Below, piece after piece: positions 28,237 to 48,791 of a stretch of 64,000 nucleotides of DNA. Each line of letters opens with the position of its first letter. Within the stretch, counting starts at the first letter, position 1. The notes below the pieces were generated by a model. That model was not told the origin of the DNA. It did not search any database and worked only from the letters and a program-made list of their open reading frames with translations. The stretch is from Chloroflexota bacterium (GTDB taxonomy: Bacteria > Chloroflexota > Dehalococcoidia > Dehalococcoidales > JACQON01), in NCBI GenBank assembly GCA_016202545.1, contig JACQON010000007.1, positions 1 to 64,000 of the forward strand, read 5' to 3'. Position numbers and translations under genes: made by a program.

Positions 28237-29370
28237 ATGGTGAGGGTATCTCCGAAAAAAGGCTCCGCCCTTCACGATTTCCCCTACACCTCTCCGCAGA
28301 GGAAGTGCCCTCACTTCTGGATTATCAATGTCACTCCTCCGGGGCCAGCCCACTGCATCCATAACTGCGTCTACTGCTACGCCAGAGAGGCCATCTATTC
28401 CGATTTCTCACCGGACATGGTTGTCTACTCCAACCTTGCGCAACTGGTGGAAAAAGACCTCAGGCGCATCCGCCTTGCCCCTCCCATCTCTATTTCCAAT
28501 ATCTCCGACCCCTGCCAGGATATTCCTGAAGTAAGGGAAGTGGTAACGGAACTGGTAAGCCTTATTTTGAGCTATGGCATCCCTTTCTGCGTCACCACTA
28601 AAGGCGACCCCCGCTTTCTCCTGGAGCTGCCCCGCTTCATCGAGTATGAGTTCAAGTTTGTCGCCATCACCATAGAGGGCACACCTGATATGCTGCCGCT
28701 CCTTTCTCCCGGAGCGCCGCCGTTTCACCAGCGGCTTGAAGCGGTCAGGCGGCTTTCCGCCGCGGGTGTAAAAACAGTAGTGCGCCTGGACCCGCTTTTC
28801 ATTCACCTGTTCTATGCCGTTTACGGTGAGAGGTGGCTTGCGGAGCTTGAAAAACTGGCCGGGGCTTTCTCTCTGGCCGGGGCCGAACACATCATTGTCA
28901 GCACCGGGCGGCTATCAAAAAGGCGCTTGCCCGGTGGCCGGCGAAGCTCCTGGGAGCGGATGGTCAGCACTGTCAGGGCGGTCTCCCCGCTGGCGGCGAG
29001 GCGTATGGAGGCCGAATATGTCTTTGAAAACAGGTGGGGAGGCAAGGGTCTCTTCCTCAGGAACGATTTGAGGCGCGAGCTGCATGCCAGATTGAAGGAG
29101 ATAGCGGAGGGGTATGATATGACCTATGCCGTATGCCAGGAGCTGGGGAAAGAGGCGGACTCTCCGGGCATAGCCCATTGCGAGCGTTTCCGGCTTCCTT
29201 TTGCCGCTAGGCAGCCCGATGGCAGCTTCAGGCCTCTCCCTGGGTGCACCGCCGTCTGCCATGTCTCCTGCCGGGATAAACAGGGGCTGCCCTGTGGACA
29301 GCCCCTGCTCGTCTCACCGGGGCCGTACAAGATAGGCCATTTAAGCCGCCTCGCGGGCTGCCGACTATAA
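28237..29370 (+). CDS. Radical SAM protein (SplB-like / COG1533)
   Basis: CX3CX2C motif 'CIHNCVYCYARE'; 'ISNISDPCQDIPE'. Confidence 0.85.
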   Translation: MVRVSPKKGSALHDFPYTSPQRKCPHFWIINVTPPGPAHCIHNCVYCYAREAIYSDFSPDMVVYSNLAQLVEKDLRRIRLAPPISISNISDPCQDIPEVREVVTELVSLILSYGIPFCVTTKGDPRFLLELPRFIEYEFKFVAITIEGTPDMLPLLSPGAPPFHQRLEAVRRLSAAGVKTVVRLDPLFIHLFYAVYGERWLAELEKLAGAFSLAGAEHIIVSTGRLSKRRLPGGRRSSWERMVSTVRAVSPLAARRMEAEYVFENRWGGKGLFLRNDLRRELHARLKEIAEGYDMTYAVCQELGKEADSPGIAHCERFRLPFAARQPDGSFRPLPGCTAVCHVSCRDKQGLPCGQPLLVSPGPYKIGHLSRLAGCRL

Positions 29371-30657
29371 GGGAGACTTGCCTATTTCCAGGGACAATTC
29401 CATTTCGAGAGAGTTTCGTATTATTTTCAGGGTGACCAGATTGCCCGGGCTTTTATTCTCTCCGAGATAAGATATAAGCTTGGCTACGTTCCTGACCATG
29501 ATGCCGTCAAAGGTCACTATGATATCATCAGCTTTAACTCCGGCTGCTATGGCGGGGTCACCAGCGGCGACTTGTCTGACCAGCACCCCGTTAACGCTAT
29601 CAAGCCCTCTACTTTGAGCAATCTGGGGAGTGATATCGGCTATCGAAATGCCAAGCCACGGGTAGTCATACGAACCACGGTCGATGAGGGATGCAGCGAC
29701 TCTTCTCAGCTTGTTTGAAGAGACAGCGTAATAGACCCCGTCGCCCTCCAGAGGGCTAACCCGTGCGATGACCATCCCGACGACCTCTTCTTTGGAGTTA
29801 AACAGGGGTCCGCCGGAGTTGCCAAAATTCACCGCGGCGTCGAACTGTATCAGGTTAGCCACGCTGCGAATCCCATCACTATATTGTATTTCGGCAGCTC
29901 TATCGGTCTGGCTGATGATGCCGGCGGTTAAGGTTCCCATCAGGTCGAAAGGGTCGCCAATGGCGAGCACCGGTTCACCAATCCTCAGCGCGGCTGAGTC
30001 AGCCAGGGCTAGCGGCTTAACTGCCGGGGGCTTTTTCAGGTCGAGGATGGCGATATCACTGTGTTTGGAGCTGCCAATGACTGTGGCCGAGGAGAAACTT
30101 CCGTCAGGGAAAATGACGTCTATTCGAGGAAGGCGCTCAATCACGTGAAAAGCGGTAGCTACATGATACTGAGCATCAATGAGGAACCCTGAGCCAATCA
30201 CCCTGTCCCCGTCGCTGATTCTAACTACAGCCTGACTTACTCCCTGGTAGACGCCGTCGGCGCTTACCACCGATTCAGAAACTCTGGCAGCTACCTGTTC
30301 AAACCCTTTATCTAATGTATCGAGCCTAATCAGCGTGCCGCCTAACTCACCTTCCAAGTCGTTCAGTTCAGTTTGCGTGTCATCTATCTCCCCTATCAAA
30401 GCACTGACTCTGCCCTGCGTGCCGTTTATCTCCTCCTGCAGGGTGCCAATCCTGGCTGTCGCCGCGTCTCTCTCTTTTTCCAGGCTATCAGACCTGGCCG
30501 TAGATTGTTGCCTGAAAGCGGCGAACTCATCATTAGCGCTGGCCAGTCGCTGGCTGAGGGCGTTTATGTCCTGGTTGAGCGTGTACGAGTAAACGCCCAG
30601 GGCACCCAGAAGAATAGCCAGTAAAAGCGACACAGCGATAGATATTTTGCCGGCCAT
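29365..30657 (-). CDS. Trypsin-like serine protease with C-terminal PDZ domain (HtrA/S1C) and N-terminal TM plus coiled coil
   Basis: 'VATAFHVIE', 'HSDIAILDLKKP', 'FDAAVNFGNSGGPLFNSKEEVVG' catalytic triad; PDZ 'GVLVRQVAAGDPAIAAGVKADDIIVTFDG'. Start at MAGKIS (30657). Confidence 0.9.
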   Translation of the reverse strand: MAGKISIAVSLLLAILLGALGVYSYTLNQDINALSQRLASANDEFAAFRQQSTARSDSLEKERDAATARIGTLQEEINGTQGRVSALIGEIDDTQTELNDLEGELGGTLIRLDTLDKGFEQVAARVSESVVSADGVYQGVSQAVVRISDGDRVIGSGFLIDAQYHVATAFHVIERLPRIDVIFPDGSFSSATVIGSSKHSDIAILDLKKPPAVKPLALADSAALRIGEPVLAIGDPFDLMGTLTAGIISQTDRAAEIQYSDGIRSVANLIQFDAAVNFGNSGGPLFNSKEEVVGMVIARVSPLEGDGVYYAVSSNKLRRVAASLIDRGSYDYPWLGISIADITPQIAQSRGLDSVNGVLVRQVAAGDPAIAAGVKADDIIVTFDGIMVRNVAKLISYLGENKSPGNLVTLKIIRNSLEMELSLEIGKSPL

Positions 30658-32428: not shown

Positions 32429-32917
32429 TCATCGCCTACTGGCGCTTCCGGCCAAATTCCTGGCGGCTGCCTGGATAGCCTCGATAATCTGGATATAGCC
32501 GGTGCAGCGGCAAAGGTTACCGGCGATGGCTGTTTTTATATCTTCCTCTGTCGGGCTGGGGTTTTCGTCCAGGAGCGCCTTGGCCGACAGCACCATCCCC
32601 GGGGTGCAGAAGCCACACTGCAGGGCGCCTTTCTCGATGAAGGCTTCCTGGATAGGGTGGAGTTTGTCGCCCCGGGCCAGCCCCTCGATAGTAAGGATAT
32701 TTCTCCCGTCTGCCTTCATAGCCAGCATCAGGCAGGAGTTCACCGTCTTGCCGTCCACGATGACCGTGCATGCTCCGCAGCAGCCGGTATCGCAGCCGCG
32801 CTTGGTACCGGTAAGGTTCAGCTCGTCCCTGAGCACATCCAGGAGCGTCCAGTTGGGCTTGACCAGGACCTGGTGGGCCTCCCCGTTCACCACCAGGCTT
32901 ATAAGTTCTGTCGTCAT
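32429..32917 (-). CDS. Molybdenum hydroxylase 2Fe-2S subunit (CoxS/XdhC-like)
   Basis: 'GTKRGCDTGCCGACTVIVDGKTVNSC' and 'CGFCTPGMVLSA...NLCRCTGY'. Confidence 0.95.
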   Translation of the reverse strand: MTTELISLVVNGEAHQVLVKPNWTLLDVLRDELNLTGTKRGCDTGCCGACTVIVDGKTVNSCLMLAMKADGRNILTIEGLARGDKLHPIQEAFIEKGALQCGFCTPGMVLSAKALLDENPSPTEEDIKTAIAGNLCRCTGYIQIIEAIQAAARNLAGSASRR

Positions 32918-33816
32918 GACTTTCCCTTTCGCCGGACCTTTTGTCGCGCCTCCCTCATCGCCTGCTCTATGCCTCGCCCGGTGAGGACTGCCACTATCTC
33001 CTTCCTGTACTCAGCGGAGCCGCGGATATCGGAAATGGGCCTGGCCGCTTCCGCGGCAGCTCTGGCCGATTCCTTTATTACATCGTCATCAAGTTTCTTT
33101 CCCCGCAGCAAGCCCTCGGCCTGTCTCGCCCTGATAGGCGTCGGGGCGACGGCACCAAGGGCAATGCGGGCATCCGAGCAGGTCAGGCCGTCTTCCGCCA
33201 GGCAGAGGACGACTGCCACGCCGACTACGGCCAGGTCCATAGCCTGCCTCGGGCTGTGTTTCAGGTATATGCCAGCGTAGCCGGCAGGTGGGTTGGGGAC
33301 TTCAATGGCGGTGAGGATTTCGTCTGGCTTCAAGGCTGTCCCGCCAGGGCCGGTGAAAAAGTCCTCCAGCCCCAGTATCCGACCTCCCTGGAGGCTGAAA
33401 GTCCTCGCCCTGGCATCCAGCGCCAGAAGGGCGGGGGCGGAGTCGGCTGAAGGAGCGGCATGGCACAGGTTGCCACCTATTGTCCCCAGGTTGCGTACCT
33501 GGACCGCCCCGATGGTATGGGCGGCCTGGGCCAGGACAGCGAACCTTTGCCGTATCAGCCTGGAAGACTCAATCTGGCCGTGGGTGCACAGCGCTCCGAT
33601 ATTCAGCCCGCTGTGCGCATCATGCCCGATGCTGTCCAGGCCGGGAATGCGGGTTATATCAACCAGGTACTCAGCGGCGATAAGCCGCTCTCTCATGCTG
33701 ACGATAAGGTCAGTACCGCCGGCGATTATCTTTGCTCTGCCATTGTGCTGCCGGAGCAGGCGGCACGCCTCCTCAATGGTGGCCGGCACGAAGTAGGCGA
33801 ATTTCGGCAGTGACAC
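32914..33816 (-). CDS. Molybdenum hydroxylase FAD-binding subunit (CoxM/XdhB-like)
   Basis: 'AKIIAGGTDLIVSMRERL', 'QVRNLGTIGGNLCHAAPSADSAPALLAL'. Confidence 0.93.
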   Translation of the reverse strand: MSLPKFAYFVPATIEEACRLLRQHNGRAKIIAGGTDLIVSMRERLIAAEYLVDITRIPGLDSIGHDAHSGLNIGALCTHGQIESSRLIRQRFAVLAQAAHTIGAVQVRNLGTIGGNLCHAAPSADSAPALLALDARARTFSLQGGRILGLEDFFTGPGGTALKPDEILTAIEVPNPPAGYAGIYLKHSPRQAMDLAVVGVAVVLCLAEDGLTCSDARIALGAVAPTPIRARQAEGLLRGKKLDDDVIKESARAAAEAARPISDIRGSAEYRKEIVAVLTGRGIEQAMREARQKVRRKGKS

Positions 33817-33818
33817 CT

Positions 33819-36125
33819 TTATTCCTTCCCGCCCTGGGACTTCTTCATCGCCATGAATATCTTCTCGCCGGTAATGGGAAGCTCTTTAATCCTCACCCCG
33901 ACGGCGTTGTAGATAGCGTTGGCGATAGCCGGAGCTACGGGAACGATGGGGGCTTCTCCGGCTCCTTTAGCCCCGTAGGGACCGGTGGGGTCCAGCTCTT
34001 CAACAATCAGCGGCACAATCTGGGGCGTGTCCAGAGCGGTAGCCATCTTGTAGTCCACGAAGCTGGGATTGAGTATACGACCGTTTTCAAACAGCGTCTC
34101 CTCGGTGAGGGCATAGCCTATCCCCTGAACGACGCCGCCATGTATCTGGCCTTCCATGGTGGCGGGGTTGATACAGCGCCCCACGTCCTGGGACTCAACG
34201 CAGCGCAACACCCTGACACGTCCGGTCTCGGTATCCACCGTCACCTCGGCGATGACGGTGGCTGGCTGAAGGGACGGCCCCTCGGACTTGGCGTACCCGC
34301 TCACCCGCTCGCTGAGGGGAACGCCTCCTTTATCAAGGAATGCCCCCCGGCCCAGGATGGGGCCGCTACGTTCGAAGATGCTCATCGTGGCCAGCTCCGC
34401 CACCGATATGCTCTTAAACGGGGAGCCGGTGACGCTGACCTTCTTGTCCCTCAGCTCCAGGTCTTCGATATTTGCCTCCAGCCTGTCGCAGGCTAGCTCA
34501 AAGAGCTGCTTTTTGACATCGGCGGCAGCCAGCCTTACCGCATGGCCGGCGGCGCGGGTCACCCTGCTGGCGCAACTGCCGAAATCATACGGCCCGGTAT
34601 CGGTATCGCCGGCGATGAGGGAGATGTCCGCTAAGTCCACGCCCAGCTCCTCAGCGGCAATCTGGCAGACCACGGTGCTACAGCCCTGTCCGACGTCAAC
34701 CGTGCCGGTTATCACGGTGAAGGTGCCATCATCGTTGACCTTGACGAAAGCGCCTGACCCGGACAGCCCGGACTCCATCAGCATGCAGGCCACTCCCCTG
34801 CCTACACGCCACCTTTTGTTCTCGGCTGAGGCCGGCCTTGCCGAGGAAATATACGCGGAAGCCCTCACCAGTGTCTCTTTCAGGCCGCAGTGGTATATCC
34901 TGTGCCCCGTCGGCAGTTCTGAGCCGTCCTTTTCAAAGCAGTTCTTCAGCCGGAACTCGACCGGGTCAATGCCCAGCTTGTCGGCGATGATGTCCATCTG
35001 GGACTCCACGGCGAAATAGGCCTGCGGGTGACCGTAACCGCGAAAAGCCCCGAACGGCTGCTTGTTGGTATAGACGCAGCGGGCGTCTACCTTGACGTGG
35101 GGAATGTTGTACGGGCCAGGGGCCGAGGTGGCGGTGTTGGTCATGACAGCCGGGCCATCGACGGCACAGGCCCCGGAATCCATGACTATCCTCGCCTCAC
35201 GGCTGACCAGCCTTCCATCACTGGTGACGCCGGTCTTCAAAGTGATGATGGAGGGGTGGCGCGGGTTGGTGCCGATGAACTCTTCTTGCCTGGTCAACAC
35301 CAGTCGCACCGGCCGCCTGGCTTTACGGGCCAGCAAAAGGCATATGCCCAGCGGAATGTAGCCCACCTTGCCGCCGAAGCTGCCGCCGGTATGCACCGTC
35401 TGAATCCGGATTTTGGTCATCGGAATGCCCAAGGCCTGTGACAGCAGCTCCCGCGCCGGGAACATCATGCTGCTGACTCCCCACAGGGACGCCTTGCCTG
35501 AGCCGTCAATCTCGGCAAGGACAGGGTGAGTTTCCAGGGAGCACTGGTGGACGACCTGGGTCTTGAAGGTATCCTCGAAGATGAAATCAGATTGCCTGAA
35601 CCCCTCCTCCACGTCCCCCTTCTTAAGCGTGGTATGTGAGCAGACATTTCGGTACTTAACGGCGCTAAAGCCGGCCTGGTAACTGGCGATGTCCTCGTGG
35701 ACAAGGGGAGCGGTCTCGCTTAAGGCTTCCAGGGGGTCATATACCGCCGGAAGCTCTTCGTATTCCACCTTGATGAGTTCGATTGCCTCTTCAGCAGTTT
35801 CCTCGTCAATGGCGGCGACGGCGGCAACGGGCTCGCCGATGAAACGGACCTTATCATAGGCGAACATGGTCTCATCCTTTACATAGAAGCCAAACCTGAT
35901 GTTCGGCGTGTCAGCGGCGGTCGCCACGGCCTTCACGCCGGGAAGCCTTTCCGCCCGGCTGGTATCAACTTTGAGCAATCGGGCATGTGCCAGGCTGCTT
36001 CTTTTGACCTTGCAGTGCAGCATATTGGGCAGCTTGAGGTCCATCACGTATTTGGCCTGCCCGGTAACCTTTTCCAGGGCATCAACCCTGGCTACACCCT
36101 TGCCAACTACTGACAAACCGCCCAT
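33819..36125 (-). CDS. Xanthine dehydrogenase-family molybdopterin-binding subunit
   Basis: 'RVDALEKVTGQAKYVMDLKLPNMLH', 'AFRGYGHPQAYFAVESQMD', active-site 'GAKGAGEAPIVPVAPAIANAIYNAVG'. Confidence 0.93.
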   Translation of the reverse strand: MGGLSVVGKGVARVDALEKVTGQAKYVMDLKLPNMLHCKVKRSSLAHARLLKVDTSRAERLPGVKAVATAADTPNIRFGFYVKDETMFAYDKVRFIGEPVAAVAAIDEETAEEAIELIKVEYEELPAVYDPLEALSETAPLVHEDIASYQAGFSAVKYRNVCSHTTLKKGDVEEGFRQSDFIFEDTFKTQVVHQCSLETHPVLAEIDGSGKASLWGVSSMMFPARELLSQALGIPMTKIRIQTVHTGGSFGGKVGYIPLGICLLLARKARRPVRLVLTRQEEFIGTNPRHPSIITLKTGVTSDGRLVSREARIVMDSGACAVDGPAVMTNTATSAPGPYNIPHVKVDARCVYTNKQPFGAFRGYGHPQAYFAVESQMDIIADKLGIDPVEFRLKNCFEKDGSELPTGHRIYHCGLKETLVRASAYISSARPASAENKRWRVGRGVACMLMESGLSGSGAFVKVNDDGTFTVITGTVDVGQGCSTVVCQIAAEELGVDLADISLIAGDTDTGPYDFGSCASRVTRAAGHAVRLAAADVKKQLFELACDRLEANIEDLELRDKKVSVTGSPFKSISVAELATMSIFERSGPILGRGAFLDKGGVPLSERVSGYAKSEGPSLQPATVIAEVTVDTETGRVRVLRCVESQDVGRCINPATMEGQIHGGVVQGIGYALTEETLFENGRILNPSFVDYKMATALDTPQIVPLIVEELDPTGPYGAKGAGEAPIVPVAPAIANAIYNAVGVRIKELPITGEKIFMAMKKSQGGKE

Positions 36126-37986: not shown

Positions 37987-38616
37987 CTATAGTCTGGTAT
38001 AGAGATGGTCGCTCGCCTGAGCTTGCCTTGCCAGCTCCCTGGCCCGGCTCAGGTCGGCTTCGGTATTGATGTTGAAAAAGCTCAGGTGGTCAGGGTCGAA
38101 ACGCTCAATCTCCCCGGCTGCAATGTAGTTCACCTTGACCCTGGGGAAAAGCTGGAGAACGCTGAGCATGTCCTGGCTCAGCATGGACTCTATCGGAGCC
38201 AGGCAGGTTCTGGCGTAGACGGCGTGGAGCGGCTCCAGCACACCGCCCAGACTCGGCACCACGCAGTCGAAGTTGGCCGAAAGCCCGGTTATATAACGGA
38301 GCAAAGCTCCATTAAGGAAAGGCATATCGCCGGCAACGACGATGTTATGGAAGGAGTCGGACGTGATGAGGCCGGTATAGATACCACCGAGAGGGCCCTT
38401 GCCGGGATGAATGTCGGTCACTATTTTCAGACGCTGGTTGCTGTCGAGCTGCGGAAGCGACTGGCCCGGAGCGATGACCACGATGATTTCGTTCCAGTCA
38501 CTGAGGCAGTCTATCACCCGCTGCAGCAGATTGCTGCCGCCGATGTACTCCGAGAACTTGTTCCGTCCCAGGCGCAAGCTCCTGCCGCCAGCAAGGACGA
38601 TACAACTAATAGCCAA
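37987..38616 (-). CDS. mobA: Molybdenum cofactor guanylyltransferase-like (MobA)
   Basis: 'CIVLAGGRSLRLGRNKF', 'VVAGDMPFLNGALL'. Likely TTG start at 38616 preceded by AAGGAG. Confidence 0.8.
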   Translation of the reverse strand: MAISCIVLAGGRSLRLGRNKFSEYIGGSNLLQRVIDCLSDWNEIIVVIAPGQSLPQLDSNQRLKIVTDIHPGKGPLGGIYTGLITSDSFHNIVVAGDMPFLNGALLRYITGLSANFDCVVPSLGGVLEPLHAVYARTCLAPIESMLSQDMLSVLQLFPRVKVNYIAAGEIERFDPDHLSFFNINTEADLSRARELARQAQASDHLYTRL

Positions 38617-38685
38617 AGCGTGCTCCTTGGTTGGCCCGGTCTGGCGAGCGATGCCAGGCCCGGCCGGCACTGCTTTCCCGTCGCT

Positions 38686-38889
38686 TCAGACGGTCTTCCT
38701 GGCCGCTTTTCCCCTGCCCCTGGCTGCTCCTGTCGCTTCCTCGTCTTCCTGGTGGCCCTGTTCCTTGCGGAAAGCACGTATCGCTTTGCCGATACTGTCG
38801 CCCACCGCCGGAAGTTTGCCCAGCCCGAAAACCATCAGGATGATGAGCAGAATAAGCCCCAGTTCCCACGGACCGATACGAAATGGCAT
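38686..38889 (-). CDS. tatA: Sec-independent translocase TatA/E-like
   Basis: '[43 protein letters not shown]'. Confidence 0.9.
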
Positions 38890-38907: not shown

Positions 38908-39459
38908 TTATGGGGGAAGCCACGGCGATTTGCAAGTCCCCAGCACAGCGGAAAAGGTCGGGGTGTTACTCATTCTGGCGCTTTTTCCTTCAGGATGAAT
39001 CCTTACCCGGAGAATGCAGGTCGTCCGGTCGCTCTGAGGCTCGGGACAGGCTTCCAGCCCCAACTGGCTGGCCCAGATACGGAAGGACTGACGGCAGTAG
39101 CGGCAGACGTGTCCTTTGCCCAGGCCCAGCTTTCGCGCCATGGCCCACTGGTCTTTGCCCCAGCCGCCAAGGCAGCCCTGGATAAAAACAAGCTCAGCCC
39201 GGTCATCTTGCAGCTTGCTTAGCTTGAAGACAACCTCGGGATACAGCGTCTCAAACGCCTCTGCCTCTTTGAGCAGGTATTCCCTGGCCGTGGGCGTGGC
39301 CGTGCCCATCCATTCCATGGCGCCGGCTGACCAGAGGTGCTCAGCGTAATCTTCCGGGGCGAGGCCGGCTTTCCTGGAGAAGGCTACGCCGGCCAGCTCG
39401 AACTTCAAACGTCCGCGGGCGGTGCGCCGCCATCGTTTCTGGGTGCTGTTCAGCGGCAT
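38908..39459 (-). CDS. Conserved-looking cytosolic protein, unknown function
   Basis: 183 aa, good codon-level continuity within the operon, 'GHVCRYCRQSF' Cys pair; no family recognised. Confidence 0.6.
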   Translation of the reverse strand: MPLNSTQKRWRRTARGRLKFELAGVAFSRKAGLAPEDYAEHLWSAGAMEWMGTATPTAREYLLKEAEAFETLYPEVVFKLSKLQDDRAELVFIQGCLGGWGKDQWAMARKLGLGKGHVCRYCRQSFRIWASQLGLEACPEPQSDRTTCILRVRIHPEGKSARMSNTPTFSAVLGTCKSPWLPP

Positions 39460-39468
39460 AATTGAACC

Positions 39469-39849
39469 TCAGACTTCGGTGCCGTGCGGGCTGGCGACGC
39501 CGTCTCGATGTGCCGCCGGGACCGGTGCTGCTGTTCTGGCGTGGGACTGCCTGAGAAGATAAGCCAGCGCCAGTGAGGCCACGGTGAGGCTGGCGAAGAG
39601 AACAAAGCCGGAGGCATAGCCGGCAGCGCCCTGGATGCGGACGAAAAGGCCCATCAGGGGTGGTATGGCGAAGCCGCCGAAGGCGCCCAGGGCTAATGCC
39701 AGCGTTGTGGCTAAGGCTAAATAAGCCGCAGCAACGACCCCTAAAGCCATTCCCTGCCCAAAGCTCAGTTGGCTTTTCGTCCCGGCAGCATGGCTCGCCT
39801 CAGTAATCGTTTCTACCAGCGGTGCGTAAGAATGTAATTCCTGTCTCAT
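39469..39849 (-). pseudogene. C-terminal fragment resembling a NarK/NasA-type MFS transporter
   Basis: 'GVVAAAYLALATTLALALGAFGGFAIPPLMGLFVRIQGAAGYASGFVLFASLTVASLALAYLLRQ' resembles the last MFS helices of NarK proteins; only 126 aa. Confidence 0.5.
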
Positions 39850-39861
39850 ATCAGCGTACCA

Positions 39862-40902
39862 TCATGAGCGGGGACGCAATCGTAGAGCGTAATTCTTTAA
39901 GAGGTTAACAATCAGTCCAGTAAAGGTTGCCAGCCAGGTCGCCATAGCCAGATAAATAAAAAACTGGGGGATAAAAGTGATAAACGGTAAATCGTTTACG
40001 GTAGCGAGTTGAAATGTGGCCGCTGTGTACATACCGAGAGGGAAAACCGCCCCCCAGTACAGCGGGCTGTAGGTCAGGGGAAGCTTTCTGTAAAGATGCC
40101 GCCAGATTCCCAGGACGATGAGCATTGGAATCCACCATGTTCCGGTGGCCCAGAAAAACATAGTAAAACCTTTGAGAAATGGTAGAATCTCACCGAAGAA
40201 GGTGAAGTTGGGTGTGTTGGCGATTAGAATCGTCCCGCTAAGGGTAGAGATAGCCACCGCGCCCATATTAATCCAGTAAGGTGGGGTGAGGTCCTGTGGG
40301 GAGAATTTGAAAAAGAAGTATCGATAAAATATCAGGGAGATTATCCAGATATAGAGCATGCCGCCGAAGAGCCACATGACGAGGGCGAGGAAGAGTACCT
40401 GGCTCTGGTAAGACTCGAAATAATGTCCCAGCAACCCGCTCAAGACGGCAACTGATTGTGTGGCGACGACGGCGGTCAACCATCCGCCGTTAATCCCCTC
40501 GGCGATGGACGGTTTGCTTTCCTTAACAATAAGGCCGGTAAAAATGGTGTAAATTAGGCTTACCCAAAGCAGAAAAGCCAGGAGCCATAAAGCGGCCGCT
40601 ATCTGATAGTCGTGCATAATGATGACAAACTGGCTGCCAAGCACACCGGTCCCGGCGGCCATGGTGAAAAACCCAGGGCCAAGACCGTGGTCGAAGAGGT
40701 CAGCCAAAAAGCGCCGTGGGAAATAGACCACCCGTAAGACAATGAGACCCCAGAGAATCACGAAGGCGACCAAGTTAAACCAGAACAAACTGATGGCAAT
40801 AAAGCCCATGCCGAGCATATTGGCAGCGATAGAGATAATGCCGGTGGCCATGACGAGGGCAAAATAGGATGGGTGTAAGTTTTCCGCTGCCGCCATGACC
40901 AT
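39862..40902 (-). CDS. TDT/TehA (SLAC1-like) family anion/dicarboxylate transporter
   Basis: 'LHPSYFALVMATGIISIAANMLG', ~10 TM helices; start chosen at MVMAAAENLHP (40902); ORF track extends to 40977. Confidence 0.8.
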   Translation of the reverse strand: MVMAAAENLHPSYFALVMATGIISIAANMLGMGFIAISLFWFNLVAFVILWGLIVLRVVYFPRRFLADLFDHGLGPGFFTMAAGTGVLGSQFVIIMHDYQIAAALWLLAFLLWVSLIYTIFTGLIVKESKPSIAEGINGGWLTAVVATQSVAVLSGLLGHYFESYQSQVLFLALVMWLFGGMLYIWIISLIFYRYFFFKFSPQDLTPPYWINMGAVAISTLSGTILIANTPNFTFFGEILPFLKGFTMFFWATGTWWIPMLIVLGIWRHLYRKLPLTYSPLYWGAVFPLGMYTAATFQLATVNDLPFITFIPQFFIYLAMATWLATFTGLIVNLLKNYALRLRPRS

Positions 40903-40942
40903 GGAACGGAGCGAGCCCCGCGTTTTGCGGCCGTTGGCTGCG

Positions 40943-41173
40943 TCAACGGCCGCCACTGGGCTCCTCCCAGGCGCCAAAGGGAATGCGCAGCAGCGACCCG
41001 GATAGCGCCGGCACCGCTACCAGTAAGCCCATCATTACTGGGCTTAGCTGCATAATATCCTTAAATTTGTGTGCCGTTGGCCCGAAGAGTGAGACTGCGG
41101 CAAATCCGATGAAAAAGCCCAGGGCGGCGCTGAACAGGCATTGGGCCGGCGAGCCCTTGACCATCTTGCCCAT
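40943..41173 (-). pseudogene. N-terminal fragment of a NarK/NasA-type MFS nitrate/nitrite transporter
   Basis: 'SAALGFFIGFAAVSLFGPTAHKFKDIMQLSPVMMGLLVAVPALSGSLLRIPFGAW' is a canonical NarK N-terminus; frame ends after 76 aa. Confidence 0.65.
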
Positions 41174-41210: not shown

Positions 41211-41885
41211 CTACTGGACCTGGCGGCGGTGCCACATGACTATCTGGTATGGCCGCCACAGATAAGCAAACGGTATTGATACTATGTGCACCAGCCTGGT
41301 GAACGGGAAAACCGCTATCAGGACCAGCGCGGCGACGGCGTGAATCTTCGCCAGCACGGGCAGCGAGGCAACGTATTTCAAATCGGGGGACAGCTTGACC
41401 AGAGACCATATGTACGGTGTGGCTGTTGTCACAAACCAAGCGGAGCCCCAGCGGTAGAAGATAGCGACCCCGATGCCGGCGACGACGGTTATGAGCAGGA
41501 GCGCCAGGAGCACCATGTCCATGGGTGTGGTCACCATGCGGACACGCGGATTGGTGCTTCTTCTCACCACCAGTATGACCAGCCCCACCAGTAGCAGCAG
41601 CCCCATCGCCAGGGCGGTGCCTTCCAGGATGTAGAGTCGGACCGGGACGCTATTGAATGCCTTCACCCCCGCCGGGAAGAAGACGCCAATCAGGTGGCCT
41701 ACCAGCACGGCGATGATTCCGTAGTGCCAGGGCACCGAACCCCAGAATAGCTGGCGGCCCTCCAGGAACTGGGAGGAAAGGCTGGAATAGGTGAACTGGT
41801 TGCGCACGTACCGCCAGATTGAGCCTCCCACCGCTATCACCACGGCGACATAGGGGAAAATGCCGAAAAGGAAAAGGTCAACCAT
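41211..41885 (-). CDS. narI: Respiratory nitrate reductase gamma subunit
   Basis: 'MVDLFLFGIFPYVAVVIAVGGSIWRYVRNQFTYSSLSSQFLE' and 'AALVLIAVFPFTRLVHIVSIPFAYLWRPYQIV'. Confidence 0.94.
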   Translation of the reverse strand: MVDLFLFGIFPYVAVVIAVGGSIWRYVRNQFTYSSLSSQFLEGRQLFWGSVPWHYGIIAVLVGHLIGVFFPAGVKAFNSVPVRLYILEGTALAMGLLLLVGLVILVVRRSTNPRVRMVTTPMDMVLLALLLITVVAGIGVAIFYRWGSAWFVTTATPYIWSLVKLSPDLKYVASLPVLAKIHAVAALVLIAVFPFTRLVHIVSIPFAYLWRPYQIVMWHRRQVQ

Positions 41886-42429
41886 GCGCCAGACCTCCTG
41901 ACCTGGTTAATTCCCGGTGCACCTGCTGCAAAAACAGTCTTAGAGCGTTGACCGCCGGAGAGTAGCCCTGGCCGTTCTTGTCTTTTTCCATCCTTTCCAG
42001 CACCGGCAGGACGCAGTCCTGAAGCAGGGGGATGACGAACTCCGGGTCCCGGGCCACGCTGAGGAACCTGAGCAGGACGCAAAGATGGTCAGGCAGCTCG
42101 CCGTTCCCGGAAAAGCCGTGGGCCTGATAAGCATCCTGCAATTTGACCATGAAGGCGCTCCGTTTGGCGCCCTCGCCGAAAAGGTGGTAGCCGAGATAGG
42201 GTGCTGTCGCCGGGGCGATGTCAAAAGTCTGGGTGTAAATCTCCTCCAGCGCTCCTCTTTCCTGGCTGCTAACGAAGGTGGCGAAGTCCTGCATCGCCCT
42301 GGCGCTTTTGGGAAAGGAGCACTCCAGTCGCCGGGCGCACTCTGCGGCAGCCTCCGGCATGGCGTCGCCGGGATAGTCCAGCACCACGGCAAAAAGGCGG
42401 CATATCTCTTTGGCGTCTTCAGGCAGCAT
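41878..42429 (-). CDS. narJ: Nitrate reductase assembly chaperone (delta)
   Basis: Position between narH and narI; 'FAVVLDYPGD', 'EIYTQTFDIAPATAPYLGYHLFGE', 'DHLCVLLRFL'. Confidence 0.9.
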   Translation of the reverse strand: MLPEDAKEICRLFAVVLDYPGDAMPEAAAECARRLECSFPKSARAMQDFATFVSSQERGALEEIYTQTFDIAPATAPYLGYHLFGEGAKRSAFMVKLQDAYQAHGFSGNGELPDHLCVLLRFLSVARDPEFVIPLLQDCVLPVLERMEKDKNGQGYSPAVNALRLFLQQVHRELTRSGGLAHG

Positions 42430-43919
42430 TATAGCCCCCGTTCCAATGGCAAATTGAAATCAAAGCCTACGTGGCCCTTGTGCCTCATCAGCTGTTCTAT
42501 TTGTTCGATAGTCTCCTCGCGGTGATACGGCGGTATGGCAAACCGGTCGTCAAAGCGGGGGACGGAGGTCAGCCGTGCTATTTGCTCGGCTTGCTCGGCG
42601 GTGCAATCCGCCTCAGCCATCATGGCTGCGACACGCTCTTCAGCGATGTCGCCCACAGCTTTGGCCCTCTGGTAGACCCGGACCGCCAGCAGCTTTCTGA
42701 TAACCCTCTTTATTGTCTCCGTATTGCCAGCGCTGAAGAGGCGCGCCATGTATTTTAGCGGCACGCGGGCGCTTTCCACCCTGCCGAAAAATTCAGCTTC
42801 GGCAAGGTCGTAGCTGCCGTCCCTCATTGAGGCGATGACCGGCAGCAGCGGCGGGACATAGAAGAGCATCGGCAGCGTGCGGAATTCGGCGTGCAACGGC
42901 AGTGCCAGCCCCCACTCTTTGACGAACTTGTAGACGGGGGACCTCTGGGCCGCCGCAATCCAGTCATCGCCGATGCCGTTCCTCCTGGCAGCGGCCACTA
43001 CAGCAGCATCGCCGGGGTCAAGGATTAGGCCGAGCTGTGCCGCCACCAGGTCGTTATCCGGCACCTTGGCGGTGGCCTCAATACGCTCAGCATCATAGAG
43101 GATGACGCCGAGGTAGCGAATCCTGCCCACACAGGTATGGAAGCAGGCCGGCGCCTGCCCGGTCTCCAGCCGGGGATAGCAGAGTATGCACTTTTCCGCT
43201 TTGCCGGTCTTCCAGTTGTAGTAGGTCTTCTTATAGGGGCAGCCGCTGACGCAGAACCGCCAGCCGCGGCATTTCTCCTGGCTCACCAGGACGATTCCAT
43301 CTTCACCCCGCTTATAGATGGCGCCGCTGGGGCAGACAGCCAGGCACGCCGGGTTCAGGCAGTGGTTGCAGATGCGGGGGATATAGAAGAAGACCATCTG
43401 TTCCAGGCGGAACAGCGATTCCCGCTCCAGCGGCGTCAGTTCGGCCAGGTTGACATCGTTCCTGGCATAGACGGAGGAGCCGCTGAGGTCGTCATCCCAG
43501 TTGGGCCCGGCTTCGATGTCCAGGTAGCGGCCAGTTATTTGAGATAGCGGTTTGGCCGTGGGCTGGTCTTCACCAAGTGGAGCGTTGAACAGGTGCTGGT
43601 ACTGGTAAGTCCACGGCTCATAGTAGTCATCCAGGCTGGGCAGGTAGGGGTTGTAGAAGATGTTGGTCAGCAGCCCCAGCCGGCGGCCGACCCTGGGGGT
43701 CAGGGAGTTCCCTTTTAGCATCCAGCCACCCTGGTATTTCCCCTGGTCTTCCCACAGGGTGGGGTATCCGGTGCCCGGCTTGGTCTCCACGTTGTTCCAC
43801 CACATGTATTCAGTGCCTTCCCGTGACGTCCACAGGTTATTACACGCCAGGCTGCAAGTGTGACAGCCGATGCACTTGTCCAGATGAAACACCATGGAAA
43901 GCTGCGCTCTGACGTCCAT
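42429..43919 (-). CDS. narH: Respiratory nitrate reductase beta subunit
   Basis: 'VFHLDKCIGCHTCSLACNNLWTSREGTEYMWWNNVETKPGTGYP', four FeS motifs. Start corrected to ATG 43919 (MDVRAQLSM). Confidence 0.96.
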   Translation of the reverse strand: MDVRAQLSMVFHLDKCIGCHTCSLACNNLWTSREGTEYMWWNNVETKPGTGYPTLWEDQGKYQGGWMLKGNSLTPRVGRRLGLLTNIFYNPYLPSLDDYYEPWTYQYQHLFNAPLGEDQPTAKPLSQITGRYLDIEAGPNWDDDLSGSSVYARNDVNLAELTPLERESLFRLEQMVFFYIPRICNHCLNPACLAVCPSGAIYKRGEDGIVLVSQEKCRGWRFCVSGCPYKKTYYNWKTGKAEKCILCYPRLETGQAPACFHTCVGRIRYLGVILYDAERIEATAKVPDNDLVAAQLGLILDPGDAAVVAAARRNGIGDDWIAAAQRSPVYKFVKEWGLALPLHAEFRTLPMLFYVPPLLPVIASMRDGSYDLAEAEFFGRVESARVPLKYMARLFSAGNTETIKRVIRKLLAVRVYQRAKAVGDIAEERVAAMMAEADCTAEQAEQIARLTSVPRFDDRFAIPPYHREETIEQIEQLMRHKGHVGFDFNLPLERGL

Positions 43920-43930
43920 CCTCTTCTCCC

Positions 43931-46900
43931 TTACCAGACTGGCTTGCCTTCGAGCTTCCGCACCAGGATATGGGCGTCCCGGTTGACTCCTGTTGGCCCC
44001 CAGTAGTTGAAGCTGTAGGTGAACTGGGCATAGCCGCCGGCCATCAGCACCGGTTTCAATCGCGCCCGGGTGAGGCTGTTGTGTCCGCCGGCCCGCCGGT
44101 GCTGACGGAGAGGAGACTTGGGCACCGAGATGGTCCGCTCCGGCGAGTGATAAAAGACACATGTCCCTTCGGGGATTCTGGCGCTTATCACCGCCCTGGT
44201 GACGACCACGCCATGGTCATTGTATATCTCCACCCAGTCATTGTCCTTGACGCCGATTTTCCTGGCGTCCTGCTCGCTGAGCCAGAAGGGCTCTATGCCA
44301 CGGGAAAGGGTAAGCATAAGCTCGTTATCATAGTAGGTGGAATGGATGTGCCATTTGCCGTGAGGCGTCAGGTACTTGAGCATGATGCTGTTGCCGTCGG
44401 GCTTGGTACGGACGAAATCGCCGAAGAACTGCGGGCTGGGATTGGGCTTATAGACAGGTAGGTTTTCCCCGAACGCCAGGTAGAGCGGGTGGTCATGGTA
44501 TAGCTGCTGGCGTCCGGTAAGGGTCCGCCACGGTACCAGTCGCTCGATATTGATGCAGAAGGGTGAGTAAGTGCGCCCATTGTTGATGATACCTGACCAG
44601 CAGGGGCTGGTCAGCAGGCGGGCCGGCTGCTGCTGGAGGTCCATAAAGCTGGTACTGGTGTTTCGCCCGCTTTCGGCCAGGTCGGTCAGGGGGAGTCCCA
44701 CCTTTTTCTCCTCTTCCTCAAAGGCCCGGTAGGCCATCTCGCCGTTGGTCTCCGGGGCGAGGTAGAGGATGATATTGGCCGCCTCCTTGGCGTTGTTCAG
44801 GGAGGGGTATTTATTGCCGTTCCACTCCTGGACAGGGTCAGATTGCAGCAGCTCATCGTAGAACTCCTTGATGTCCCACTTTACGCCGTGAGCGCCGATG
44901 CCATTCTGCCTTGCCAGCGGTCCCAGGGAGATGAAACGGTGGTATAAGTTGACATAATCTCTCTCTACCACCATCAGGTGAGGCATGGTCTTTCCGGGGA
45001 TAGGCTCGCATTCGCCCTTGGCCCAGTCTCTGGCCTCCGGCTGCGCCAGCTCATCGGCGGTATCGTGCTGGAGCGGAGTGCAGACAATCTCCTTGACCGG
45101 CTGGGCGAAATGCGTTTTGGCCAGCCCACTCACCTTTTTGGCGATGGACTTGAAGATTTCCCAGTCGCTCTTCGACTCCCAGCATGGCGGCACCACCTGG
45201 GAAAGCGGGAGTATATAGCTGTGGAGGTCGGTGGAGTTGAGGTCGTCCTTCTCATACCAGGTAGCGGTGGGCAGGACGATGTCCGAATACAGGGCAGAGG
45301 TATCCATGCGGAAATTGATGTCCACCACCAGGTCATTTTTGCCGGTAGGAGCGACATCTCGCCATACTACCTCGCTTACCGTCCCCTGGGCGGCTTCGGT
45401 GGCAACCACATTGGAATCGGTGCCGAGGAAATGCTTGAGGAAGTACTCATGTCCCTTGGCGCTCGACATCAGGGCGTTGCCCCGCCAGATAAGCCACAGC
45501 CTGGGCCAGTTCTCCGGGGCATCCGGGTCTTCTACCGCGAAGCGCACTTTGCCTGACTTAAGCTGGGCGACTACCCAGTTGACGATTTCCTGGTCGGACT
45601 GGGCGCCCGCTTTTCTGGCCTCTTCCACCAGGGCGATGGGGTTGCGGTTGAACTGGGGATAAAAGGGCAGCCAGCCCATGCGCACTGCCCTGGCCTGAAT
45701 GTCCATGGTGTGACCTTTGGCCAAAGCCCCATCGCCAGACGGAGGCGCGTAGTCGCCGAAACTACCTTCATACCGCCACTGGTCAGTGTGCACATAGTAG
45801 TAGGAAGGGCTATTCTGGAGCCTGGGCGGGGCAAGCCAGTCGGTGGCAAAGGCGATACTTGACCACGGCGCGATTGCCGCCAGCTTCTCCTGGCCGACAT
45901 AATGGGCCAGGCCGCCGCCATTGCGCCCGATGCAGCCGGTTAACATAAGGGCAGTGATGGGGGCACGGTACATCAGGTTGTTGTGATACCAGTGGTTAAT
46001 TCCTGCCCCGATGATTACGGTGCATTTGCCGCCCGTCTTTTCGGCGGTGGCGGCGAACTCGCGGGCGAACTTCACCACGGTCTGGCGATTGATGCCGGTA
46101 AATTTCTCCTGCCACGCCGGCGAGTATGTCTTGGGGTCATCGTAGCTGCCGGGATAGTCACCGGCAAGGCCGCGTGGCACGCCAAACCGGGCCATGAGCA
46201 GGTCAAAGACGGTGGTCACCGTCACCCTGCCTTTTCCCGTTTCCAGGCGCTTGACGGGCACCCCGCGCCATGACGTTGATTGGTCTTCAAAATTGGTGAA
46301 CTCTACCGGAACAACTTCGTCGCTATCGTCAATAAAGGTGAGGGTGGGGTCAAGCTCGGCGTTGTCCAGGCCGTCCTTCATCTCCAGGTTCCACTTTCCG
46401 GCCTCTTGCTTCGCCCACCGGTGGCCGATGGCCCCTTTGGGCATCCTGGGCTGCCCTGACATCCGGTCATAGATGAGGAACTTCCAGTCCCCGTTTTCGA
46501 TATCACGGTAGCGCGTGACCTCCCTGGCGCGGAGGAACTGCCCGGCCCGGTAGCCATCTCCGCTTTTTTCCAGGGTCACCAGGAAGGGGGAATCGGTATA
46601 TTTCTTGACATAATCGATGAAAGACGGCACCTGACGGTCAACATAGAACTCCTTGAGGATGACCTGGTTGGCCGCCATCCAGAAAGCGCCATCCTGCCCG
46701 GGGCTGACCGGTATCCACCAGTCGGAGTATTTGGCCACCTGGCTGAAGTCCGGGGAAAGAACGGTGAACTTAGTCCCCCGGTGCCGCGCTTCGGCGACAA
46801 AGTGCACGTCAGGGGTCCGTGTCATGTTCAGGTTGGCCCCCATGGAGACGATATACTTGGCGTGGTACCAGTCGGCGCTCTCCTGCACGTCTGTCTGCTC

Positions 46901-47548
46901 TCCCCACATCTCCGGCGAGGCCGGGGGCAGGTCGCTGTACCAGTCGTAGAAGCTGAGGTTGATGCCGCCAAAGAGCTGTAGCAGGCGTGAGCCTCCGGCA
47001 TAGCTCAGGTAGGACATGGCCGGTATAGGCGAGAAGCCGGCGATGCGGTCGGGGCCGTATTTCTTGGCGGTGTAGAGCATGGCGGCAGCGACGATTTCGG
47101 TGACCTCATCCCATGAGGTGCGGCGGAAGCCGCCTTTACCGCGCGCCCGCTGGTAGGCGGCGCGGGCGTCATCGTTTTCCACCACCGATGCCCATGCCTC
47201 GACGGGGTCAACGTTCCGCTGTCTGGCTGTTCTCCACAGGTCGGCCAGGACTCCCCTGATATAGGGGTACTTTACCCGGATAGGGCTGTAGATGTACCAG
47301 GAGAAGGATATGCCGCGCTGGCAACCTCGCGGCTCATAGGGGGGCAGGTCCTTCTCGAAGTCCGGATAGTCCAGCGCCTGCGTCTCCCAGGTGATGAGCC
47401 CGTTCTTGACATAGACCATCCACGAGCAGCCGCCGGTGCAGTTGACGCCGTGAGTGCTGCGAACAACCTTGTCATATTCCCAGCGGTTGCGGTAGAAGTC
47501 TTCCCAGCGGCGCTGCTGCGGGTTTATGATATCGCGAATCCAGCTCAT
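43931..47548 (-). CDS. narG: Respiratory nitrate reductase alpha subunit (NarG-type)
   Basis: '[32 protein letters not shown]', '[29 protein letters not shown]'; 1205 aa. Confidence 0.96.
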
Positions 47549-48474
47549 CTCGCTCCTCCTCTAAGCAGCGGCTGTCTGACACCGGAAAGCCGCCGTCGCC
47601 ACGCCAGCTGGAATACCCCCAGCAGGATAAGGAAGCCGCCGGCGCCGGCCGCGATGAAAATGGGCTGGTTCTGGGCCGGCTTCGATTCGGCGGCGCCGGT
47701 TTCCCGTAAAAAGGCTATCAGGTGGGCGATTTCATCATCGGCCAGGGGCCGCTCCCGGTAAAGGCCTATCATTATGGGGAAAGGCGTCGTCTTCAGCAGT
47801 GAAGTCAACCCTTGCTCTCCGAGGCGGGCATAAGCATCGGAGAGGTCTTTGGCCATGGTGCCACCGCCGAGAGTGCCAATGCCGCTGACATTATGGCAAC
47901 TGATACACGCCGCTCCGCCGTTTCTAAGGGCAGTCTGGCCGTTGAAAAGGCGTTCGCCTATGCCGGCGGCATCACCGGCGGCAACCGGCACGCTGGTCGC
48001 TGTTGGAGTAGGAGCGGGTGTTGGAGTGGTAGCGGTCCCTGCGGACTGGCTCTCTATGTAGGACAAGACATCTTCAGCCTCCGGCTCGGAAAGCCCCATG
48101 TTGGGCATCGGCAGGCCATATTCCTGGACAAGCTGCGTGGCGATGGGGTCTCCCTCGGCGATGACCTGCTGCGGGGCGACGATGAACCGGATGAGCCACT
48201 TCCTGTCCCGCTGGGCGGTTATGCCCTTGAGGTCAGGTCCCACTGCCCTCCCAGCGCCGATGGTGTGGCAGGCCTGGCATTTCTGCTCGAAAATGGCCTG
48301 CCCCTGTCCCTCCGGCGCGGCGGCATAGGCGGGCGCCGCCTCAAAACCCGGTACAAGTCTGCCGGTCTTTTGTCCGGGTGACAGTACCAATGCAATGTTA
48401 AGGAGGAGAACCAGTGCGGCAAATCCCGCCACGGCCACGCTTACGCGGGAGGCAAACTTCCATTTATCCGTCAT
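47545..48474 (-). CDS. Membrane-anchored diheme cytochrome c (NarC-like position)
   Basis: Two CXXCH motifs (CQACH, CISCH), Pro/Thr linker, N- and C-terminal TM; start at MTDKWKF (48474). Confidence 0.85.
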
Positions 48475-48791
48475 TTCCGCCCCTCTCCTTCTCTTCTTCT
48501 GCCGCTGGCCCGCTGAGCCGATACACAAACACAGCTCCCTCGCTTCGGGAGCCAGTTATATTCTAACACATGCCTGAAGCTATGTATGTCATAAAGTTGA
48601 CAGAAGCCTCCACGTTGCACGGCTTCTGCCGGGAGCCAGGATGATAAAGACATTATACAACCACTGGCGCGAAAATCAAGGCCATACTTTTCTATCTACG
48701 GCAGCGTCCTTGATATTGCCGTCGGTCAAAGTTATTATAGTAAAAAGCGTAGTGGCCTTCACCGGAACTATGAAGATGAGGTGAAATGCTA

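Follow-up and report, generated by a model that had tools for sequence, protein, structure and literature searches.

The textbook account of nitrate respiration assigns nitrate/nitrite exchange to NarK-type proteins of the major facilitator superfamily (MFS); what proteins with the SLAC1 fold do in bacteria is, to our knowledge, poorly known beyond TehA. In the nar operon of Thermus thermophilus, narK-narT has been swapped for narO (PMC6394727, PMC7694296). Plant SLAC1 and SLAH3 conduct nitrate (PMC3509319), and a TDT-family transporter is listed together with NarK in a Nitrobacter genome as a prediction for nitrite/nitrate transfer (PMC12815253). The locus described here, from a Chloroflexota bacterium, is probably a case of in-situ replacement of a transporter gene in a respiratory nitrate reductase operon, the TDT protein most likely moving nitrate/nitrite. 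As in Thermus, the reductase genes of a narCGHJI operon were conserved while the transporter position at its end appears to have been swapped. However, the Thermus newcomer NarO also belongs to the MFS and its swap leaves whole genes, whereas the protein that now occupies this position in our locus has another fold (SLAC1/TDT) and its gene is flanked by narK remnants. This TDT shares the PF03595 domain and the all-helical SLAC1 fold with HiTehA, plant SLAC1/SLAH3 and fungal Mae1 and Ssu1, but its identity to the solved TDT/SLAC1 proteins is only 13-16%, and it belongs to a nar-linked subfamily for which we found no characterised member. In Nitrobacter, too, a TDT is proposed for nitrite/nitrate alongside a Nar/NXR-type enzyme; there it accompanies NarK, whereas here it replaces NarK, and the two are likened by described role rather than by sequence. 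We found no report of a TDT gene replacing narK in the open-access literature.

The window, the whole stretch of 64,000 nucleotides that was analysed (positions 1 to 64,000 of contig JACQON010000007.1, assembly GCA_016202545.1), comes from one metagenome-assembled genome (MAG) of 1.74 Mb in 34 contigs that is 88% complete. On the minus strand, a narC-like cytochrome gene is followed by narG, narH, narJ and narI, and then by three ORFs that lie exactly where the original prediction had placed them (Table 1). A Tat leader is not evident in NarG (inspection by eye), and nitrate must therefore be imported into the cytoplasm and nitrite exported from it. Directly 3' of the last of the three ORFs is a 183-aa ORF (38908-39459, minus strand) that has no Pfam match and is absent from the relatives' nar loci compared. 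Downstream of nar are a TatA-like gene (PF02416) and a gene for a MobA-like NTP transferase (PF12804), at 37987-38889 on the minus strand, which are plausible helpers of a molybdoenzyme operon. The minus strand, on which nar lies, also encodes a molybdenum hydroxylase of three subunits at 32429-36125, by eye of the CO dehydrogenase/xanthine oxidase type. A promoter/terminator scan returned matches barely above those in shuffled sequences.

Table 1 Coordinates of the nar genes, of the rearranged transporter genes and of the two joints in the window.
Feature	Coordinates	Strand	Basis
narC-like cytochrome c, nar operon head	47545..48528	-	PF00034; same gene 5' of narG in relatives
narG, catalytic subunit, 1205 aa, intact	43931..47548	-	62-82% identity to relatives' full-length narG
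narH, 496 aa, intact	42429..43919	-	PF14711 Nitr_red_bet_C; start computed
narJ, chaperone	41878..42429	-	PF02613
narI, gamma subunit, intact	41211..41885	-	PF02665 1.3e-67; TIGR00351 above cut-off
narK N-terminal remnant, 76 aa, start to GGR motif, TGA stop 40945-40943	40943..41173	-	TIGR00886, DNA alignment
Shine-Dalgarno GGGAGGAG, within narK remnant, for TDT start GTG 40956	40961..40968	-	Free-energy estimate
Joint 1, narK (TGGCGGCCG, GGR codons) to TDT N-terminal tail (GTGGCGG..GTTGA)	40943..40957	-	DNA alignment
TDT/SLAC1-family anion channel/transporter (predicted), intact core	39862..40956	-	PF03595, model, Foldseek, alignments
126-aa ORF, two parts fused in frame	39469..39849	-	FNT aa 1-55, NarK C-terminus aa ~54-126
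FNT-family (FocA/NirC-like) gene start, first ~54 codons	39688..39849	-	Match to relatives' FNT
Joint 2, CTGGGCGCC, common to FNT TM1 end and narK 'GAFGGF', in frame	39682..39690	-	DNA alignment
narK C-terminal remnant, ~72 codons, last two helices, narK's own stop	39469..39687	-	G037 match, DNA alignment

The middle ORF had been predicted to be a complete TDT gene, and its match to PF03595 (SLAC1) bears this out, covering profile positions 1-330 of 331 (7.6e-50; 170.4 bits against a cut-off of 27.9). Against TIGR00816 (tdt, tellurite-resistance/dicarboxylate) the protein scores 75.4 bits, below the cut-off of 237.25; in sequence terms it is a member of the TIGR00816 superfamily outside that named subfamily. 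A sequence search against solved structures gave zero matches, and a fold search was needed. The AlphaFold2 model (mean pLDDT 86.6, from a 16-sequence alignment) matched plant SLAC1 and HiTehA in Foldseek with TM scores of up to about 0.75, TehA and SLAC1 entries occupying ranks 1-24 among its PDB matches. Several invariant phenylalanines (F242, F246 and F249) lie in the helix region that corresponds to TM9, the site of the family's pore-gating phenylalanine, and are candidates for that residue, the residue alignment to TehA being unreliable at such low identity. Relatives of this TDT were not found in viral contigs.

The two ORFs on either side of TDT hold what is left of narK. The 76-aa product is a NarK N-terminus, as had been proposed: it matches TIGR00886 (NarK) over profile positions 2-67 (2.4e-6) and is 72% identical over 75 aa to the full-length narK of a relative, G037 (tblastn). 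The 126-aa product had been taken for the last helices of the same protein, which is correct for residues 54-107 (67% identity to the NarK C-terminus of G037, 2e-20) but not for residues 1-56, which are instead an FNT N-terminus (68-70%, with 4e-19 for the 68% match, to the FNT genes that follow TDT in L053, L024 and G037). The full-length FNT counterparts of the relatives match PF01226 at about 1e-70, versus an E value of 0.2 for the FNT piece of the chimera alone; its NarK C-terminal piece alone has zero family-model matches. About 300 central codons of narK are missing and its frame is broken, which leaves no complete 12-helix protein, and the first ~54 residues are all that is left of FNT, short of a complete FNT channel. 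Full-length NarK and full-length FNT were found nowhere else in the 88%-complete assembly; other MFS proteins of the genome score weakly against NarK and are possible porters. The idea that narK was broken in situ within the nar operon, with TDT between its ends and no full-length copy elsewhere in the assembly, thus holds. The view that TDT displaced narK needs amending in one respect: TDT does sit inside narK, but what was inserted is a TDT-FNT pair that breaks off part-way through FNT.

Searches of a single set of 393 genomes of the class located narI in 21 genomes and TDT of the window type in 12, and 11 of these 12 also carry narI (Fisher p about 5e-15, a value that overstates the association because the genomes are related); 10 of the 12 have both genes on a single contig, no more than about 8 kb apart. 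Any view of TDT as a foreign channel newly reaching nar biology is contradicted by this survey: as judged from gene neighbourhoods, TDT recurs as a companion of nar across the class, and narK and FNT are often there as well. Three relatives (G105, G070 and G076) have the order narI-narK-TDT-FNT, and their narGHJI-narK-TDT-FNT clusters match the window in the genes found around nar and in how these are ordered, but with all three transporter genes intact, whereas in the window TDT alone is intact. Other arrangements are narI-narK-TDT (G073), narGHJI-narK facing FNT-TDT-small (G037), narI-narK-FNT-HK-RR-small-TDT (G103), narI-TDT-FNT without narK (G038) and narI-TDT (G204). No NarK-grade match was found in G038 (91% complete) or G204 (95%), both of which have nar and TDT. 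Judging by linkage and fold, NarK, TDT and FNT seem to have a nitrate/nitrite role in common in these relatives. Beyond these genomes, an Obscuribacterales locus contains narK-TDT near a probable nitric oxide reductase gene (by eye), and a Mesorhizobium TDT homologue adjoins NnrS.

These distributions bear on the best surviving alternative, in which chance loss removed narK, and TDT, present at the site by accident, has a role unrelated to nitrate (for example, sulfite or organic-acid efflux). Fungal members of the SLAC1 family do transport malate or sulfite (PMC6765260), and haloarchaeal TDT homologues (45-47% identity) adjoin a gene for a sulfite-oxidase-type molybdoprotein, a neighbourhood suggesting that the substrate of the wider subfamily may not be nitrate/nitrite everywhere. 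However, the strong co-occurrence and adjacency of TDT and nar across the class, together with the retention of narI-TDT-FNT without a NarK-grade match in G038, make this account unlikely. Several further observations concern the surroundings of TDT homologues. The haloarchaeal genes in L097, L098 and L100 are on plasmids, 3' of a fused cytochrome b561/sulfite-oxidase-type molybdoprotein. In Chloroflexota clusters (L024, L025, L053 and L055), a protein of ~110 aa with no Pfam match is encoded 5' of TDT, and several of these clusters include a NarXL-like kinase and regulator. In G079, a diverged TDT (L091, 10968-11882) is matched in two neighbouring pieces (G079:C14:28985-29269 and 29282-29878), away from nar and with a kinase and a regulator in the region.

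Both joints of the gene replacement are still readable in the DNA, and alignment with the relatives' nar loci, the comparison proposed at the outset for finding the breakpoints, mapped them at base level. At joint 1, narK similarity extends through GGCGGCCG and TDT-tail similarity starts at GTGGCGG..GTTGA (40956-40943), with perhaps 7-8 bases common to both parents. At joint 2, FNT similarity ends and narK similarity begins at CTGGGCGCC, where about 6-9 bases are common to the parents. The GC content of the insert is 51-53%, against 59-67% in the flanking pieces, with a step at the joints. In the TDT tree, the gene of the window clusters with the Chloroflexota HK-RR-small-TDT(-FNT) type (100/99), apart from the narK-TDT-FNT type, and insertion from an HK-RR-small-TDT(-FNT) cluster is therefore likelier than in-place deletion of a narK-TDT-FNT array. 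A segment with a 5'-truncated TDT and the start of its usual downstream partner FNT probably recombined into narK via very short shared sequences. Such an event would have deleted about 300 central narK codons, shortened the TDT N-tail and truncated FNT, whose start would have become fused in frame to the end of narK. The replacement is evident from comparison with the relatives; the route through recombination is one that we infer from the joints.

Further results bear on the origin of the insert. Transposon or IS insertion is rejected, the joints being without a flanking repeat pair and no transposase ORF being present between them. Intragenomic movement is unsupported, as a close homologue of an orphaned donor HK-RR locus is absent from the same genome (best 33%). 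Composition does not prove a foreign origin, as the GC3 of TDT alone falls inside the range spanned by the genes of the window. Between the NarK tail and the TDT gene there is a perfect inverted repeat of 16 nt (39512-39527 / 40644-40659), with neither arm at a joint.

The joints also speak to the possibility that assembly mistakenly merged metagenome reads of a TDT-FNT cluster, derived from a related strain, with narK. The data come from a single 34-contig MAG, the one genome of its genus in the set compared, and the insert has a lower GC content than its flanks, both of which fit such an error. Yet the error would have to comprise two independent wrong joins in the same narK and in collinear order, and the sequence common to the parents at the joints is shorter than usual assembler k-mers. 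Moreover, unbroken narK or FNT is absent from the assembly, no second copy of joint 2 was found in it, joint 2 is in frame, and the new TDT start has a good Shine-Dalgarno sequence. We consider a chimeric assembly distinctly improbable and retain the replacement of narK as the preferred reading.

The replacement would also have remodelled the start of TDT. About 30 residues precede YFALVMATG in its N-tail, compared with 42-53 in most relatives when counted from their likely starts, and the original start was lost at joint 1. TDT now appears to begin at a GTG within the narK remnant: the Shine-Dalgarno sequence of GTG 40956 is estimated at -11.0 kcal/mol, a strength comparable to that of narG and narI, versus -2.7 to -5.0 at other in-frame starts (generic 16S tail assumed); homologous narK segments give -3.0 to -7.3. 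The site lies within narK codons for WEE in the window; of four homologues, three have WVD there and one has WTD. The GTG overlaps the stop codon of the narK remnant, an arrangement that would permit translational coupling. The 5' end of narK may accordingly act as a leader for TDT, whose operon position would give transcription with nar and whose translation would depend on the Shine-Dalgarno sequence and GTG inside the remnant.

In pairwise comparisons with four intact narK genes, the narK pieces show dN values that do not exceed those among the intact genes themselves. Lacking excess amino-acid change, the pieces point to a break that is young relative to the divergence of the compared relatives, and the low dN is, on these sequences, explained without constraint on the fragments. 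The likeliest view of the 76-aa fragment and the 126-aa FNT::NarK chimera is that they are remnants without function; that they are expressed small membrane proteins working with TDT is very hard to credit. In favour of expression, both frames are open, the dN of the narK pieces resembles that of intact genes and the NarK N-fragment retains a good Shine-Dalgarno sequence. Against it, each product keeps no more than two or three helices where the parent protein has 12 or 6, the Asp conserved in the NarK motif is altered (WVD to WEE), the Shine-Dalgarno sequence of the chimera start is weak (-3.2) and recent breakage accounts for the low dN equally well.

What remains at the end of the operon is a TDT that would serve a NarGHI facing the cytoplasm by letting nitrite out, nitrate in, or both. 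As far as can be recognised from sequence, it is the only nitrate/nitrite transporter left, and gene linkage and fold, which are the basis of this assignment, incline us to the view that it took over nitrate/nitrite movement. The weakest step concerns direction: through a passive anion channel, the membrane potential would drive nitrite out more readily than nitrate in, and nitrate uptake would require either exchange or a gradient. At 88% completeness there is room for a narK or FNT gene outside the assembly. More tentatively, and with rather less confidence than in the takeover itself, a nar-linked channel of the SLAC1/TehA type might alone sustain nitrate respiration in place of NarK, in which case the organism would be a natural NarK-minus, FNT-minus respirer. 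Taken with the two NarK-less relatives and with the link between TDT and nar across the class, this locus makes a nitrate/nitrite role for bacterial SLAC1 proteins directly testable.
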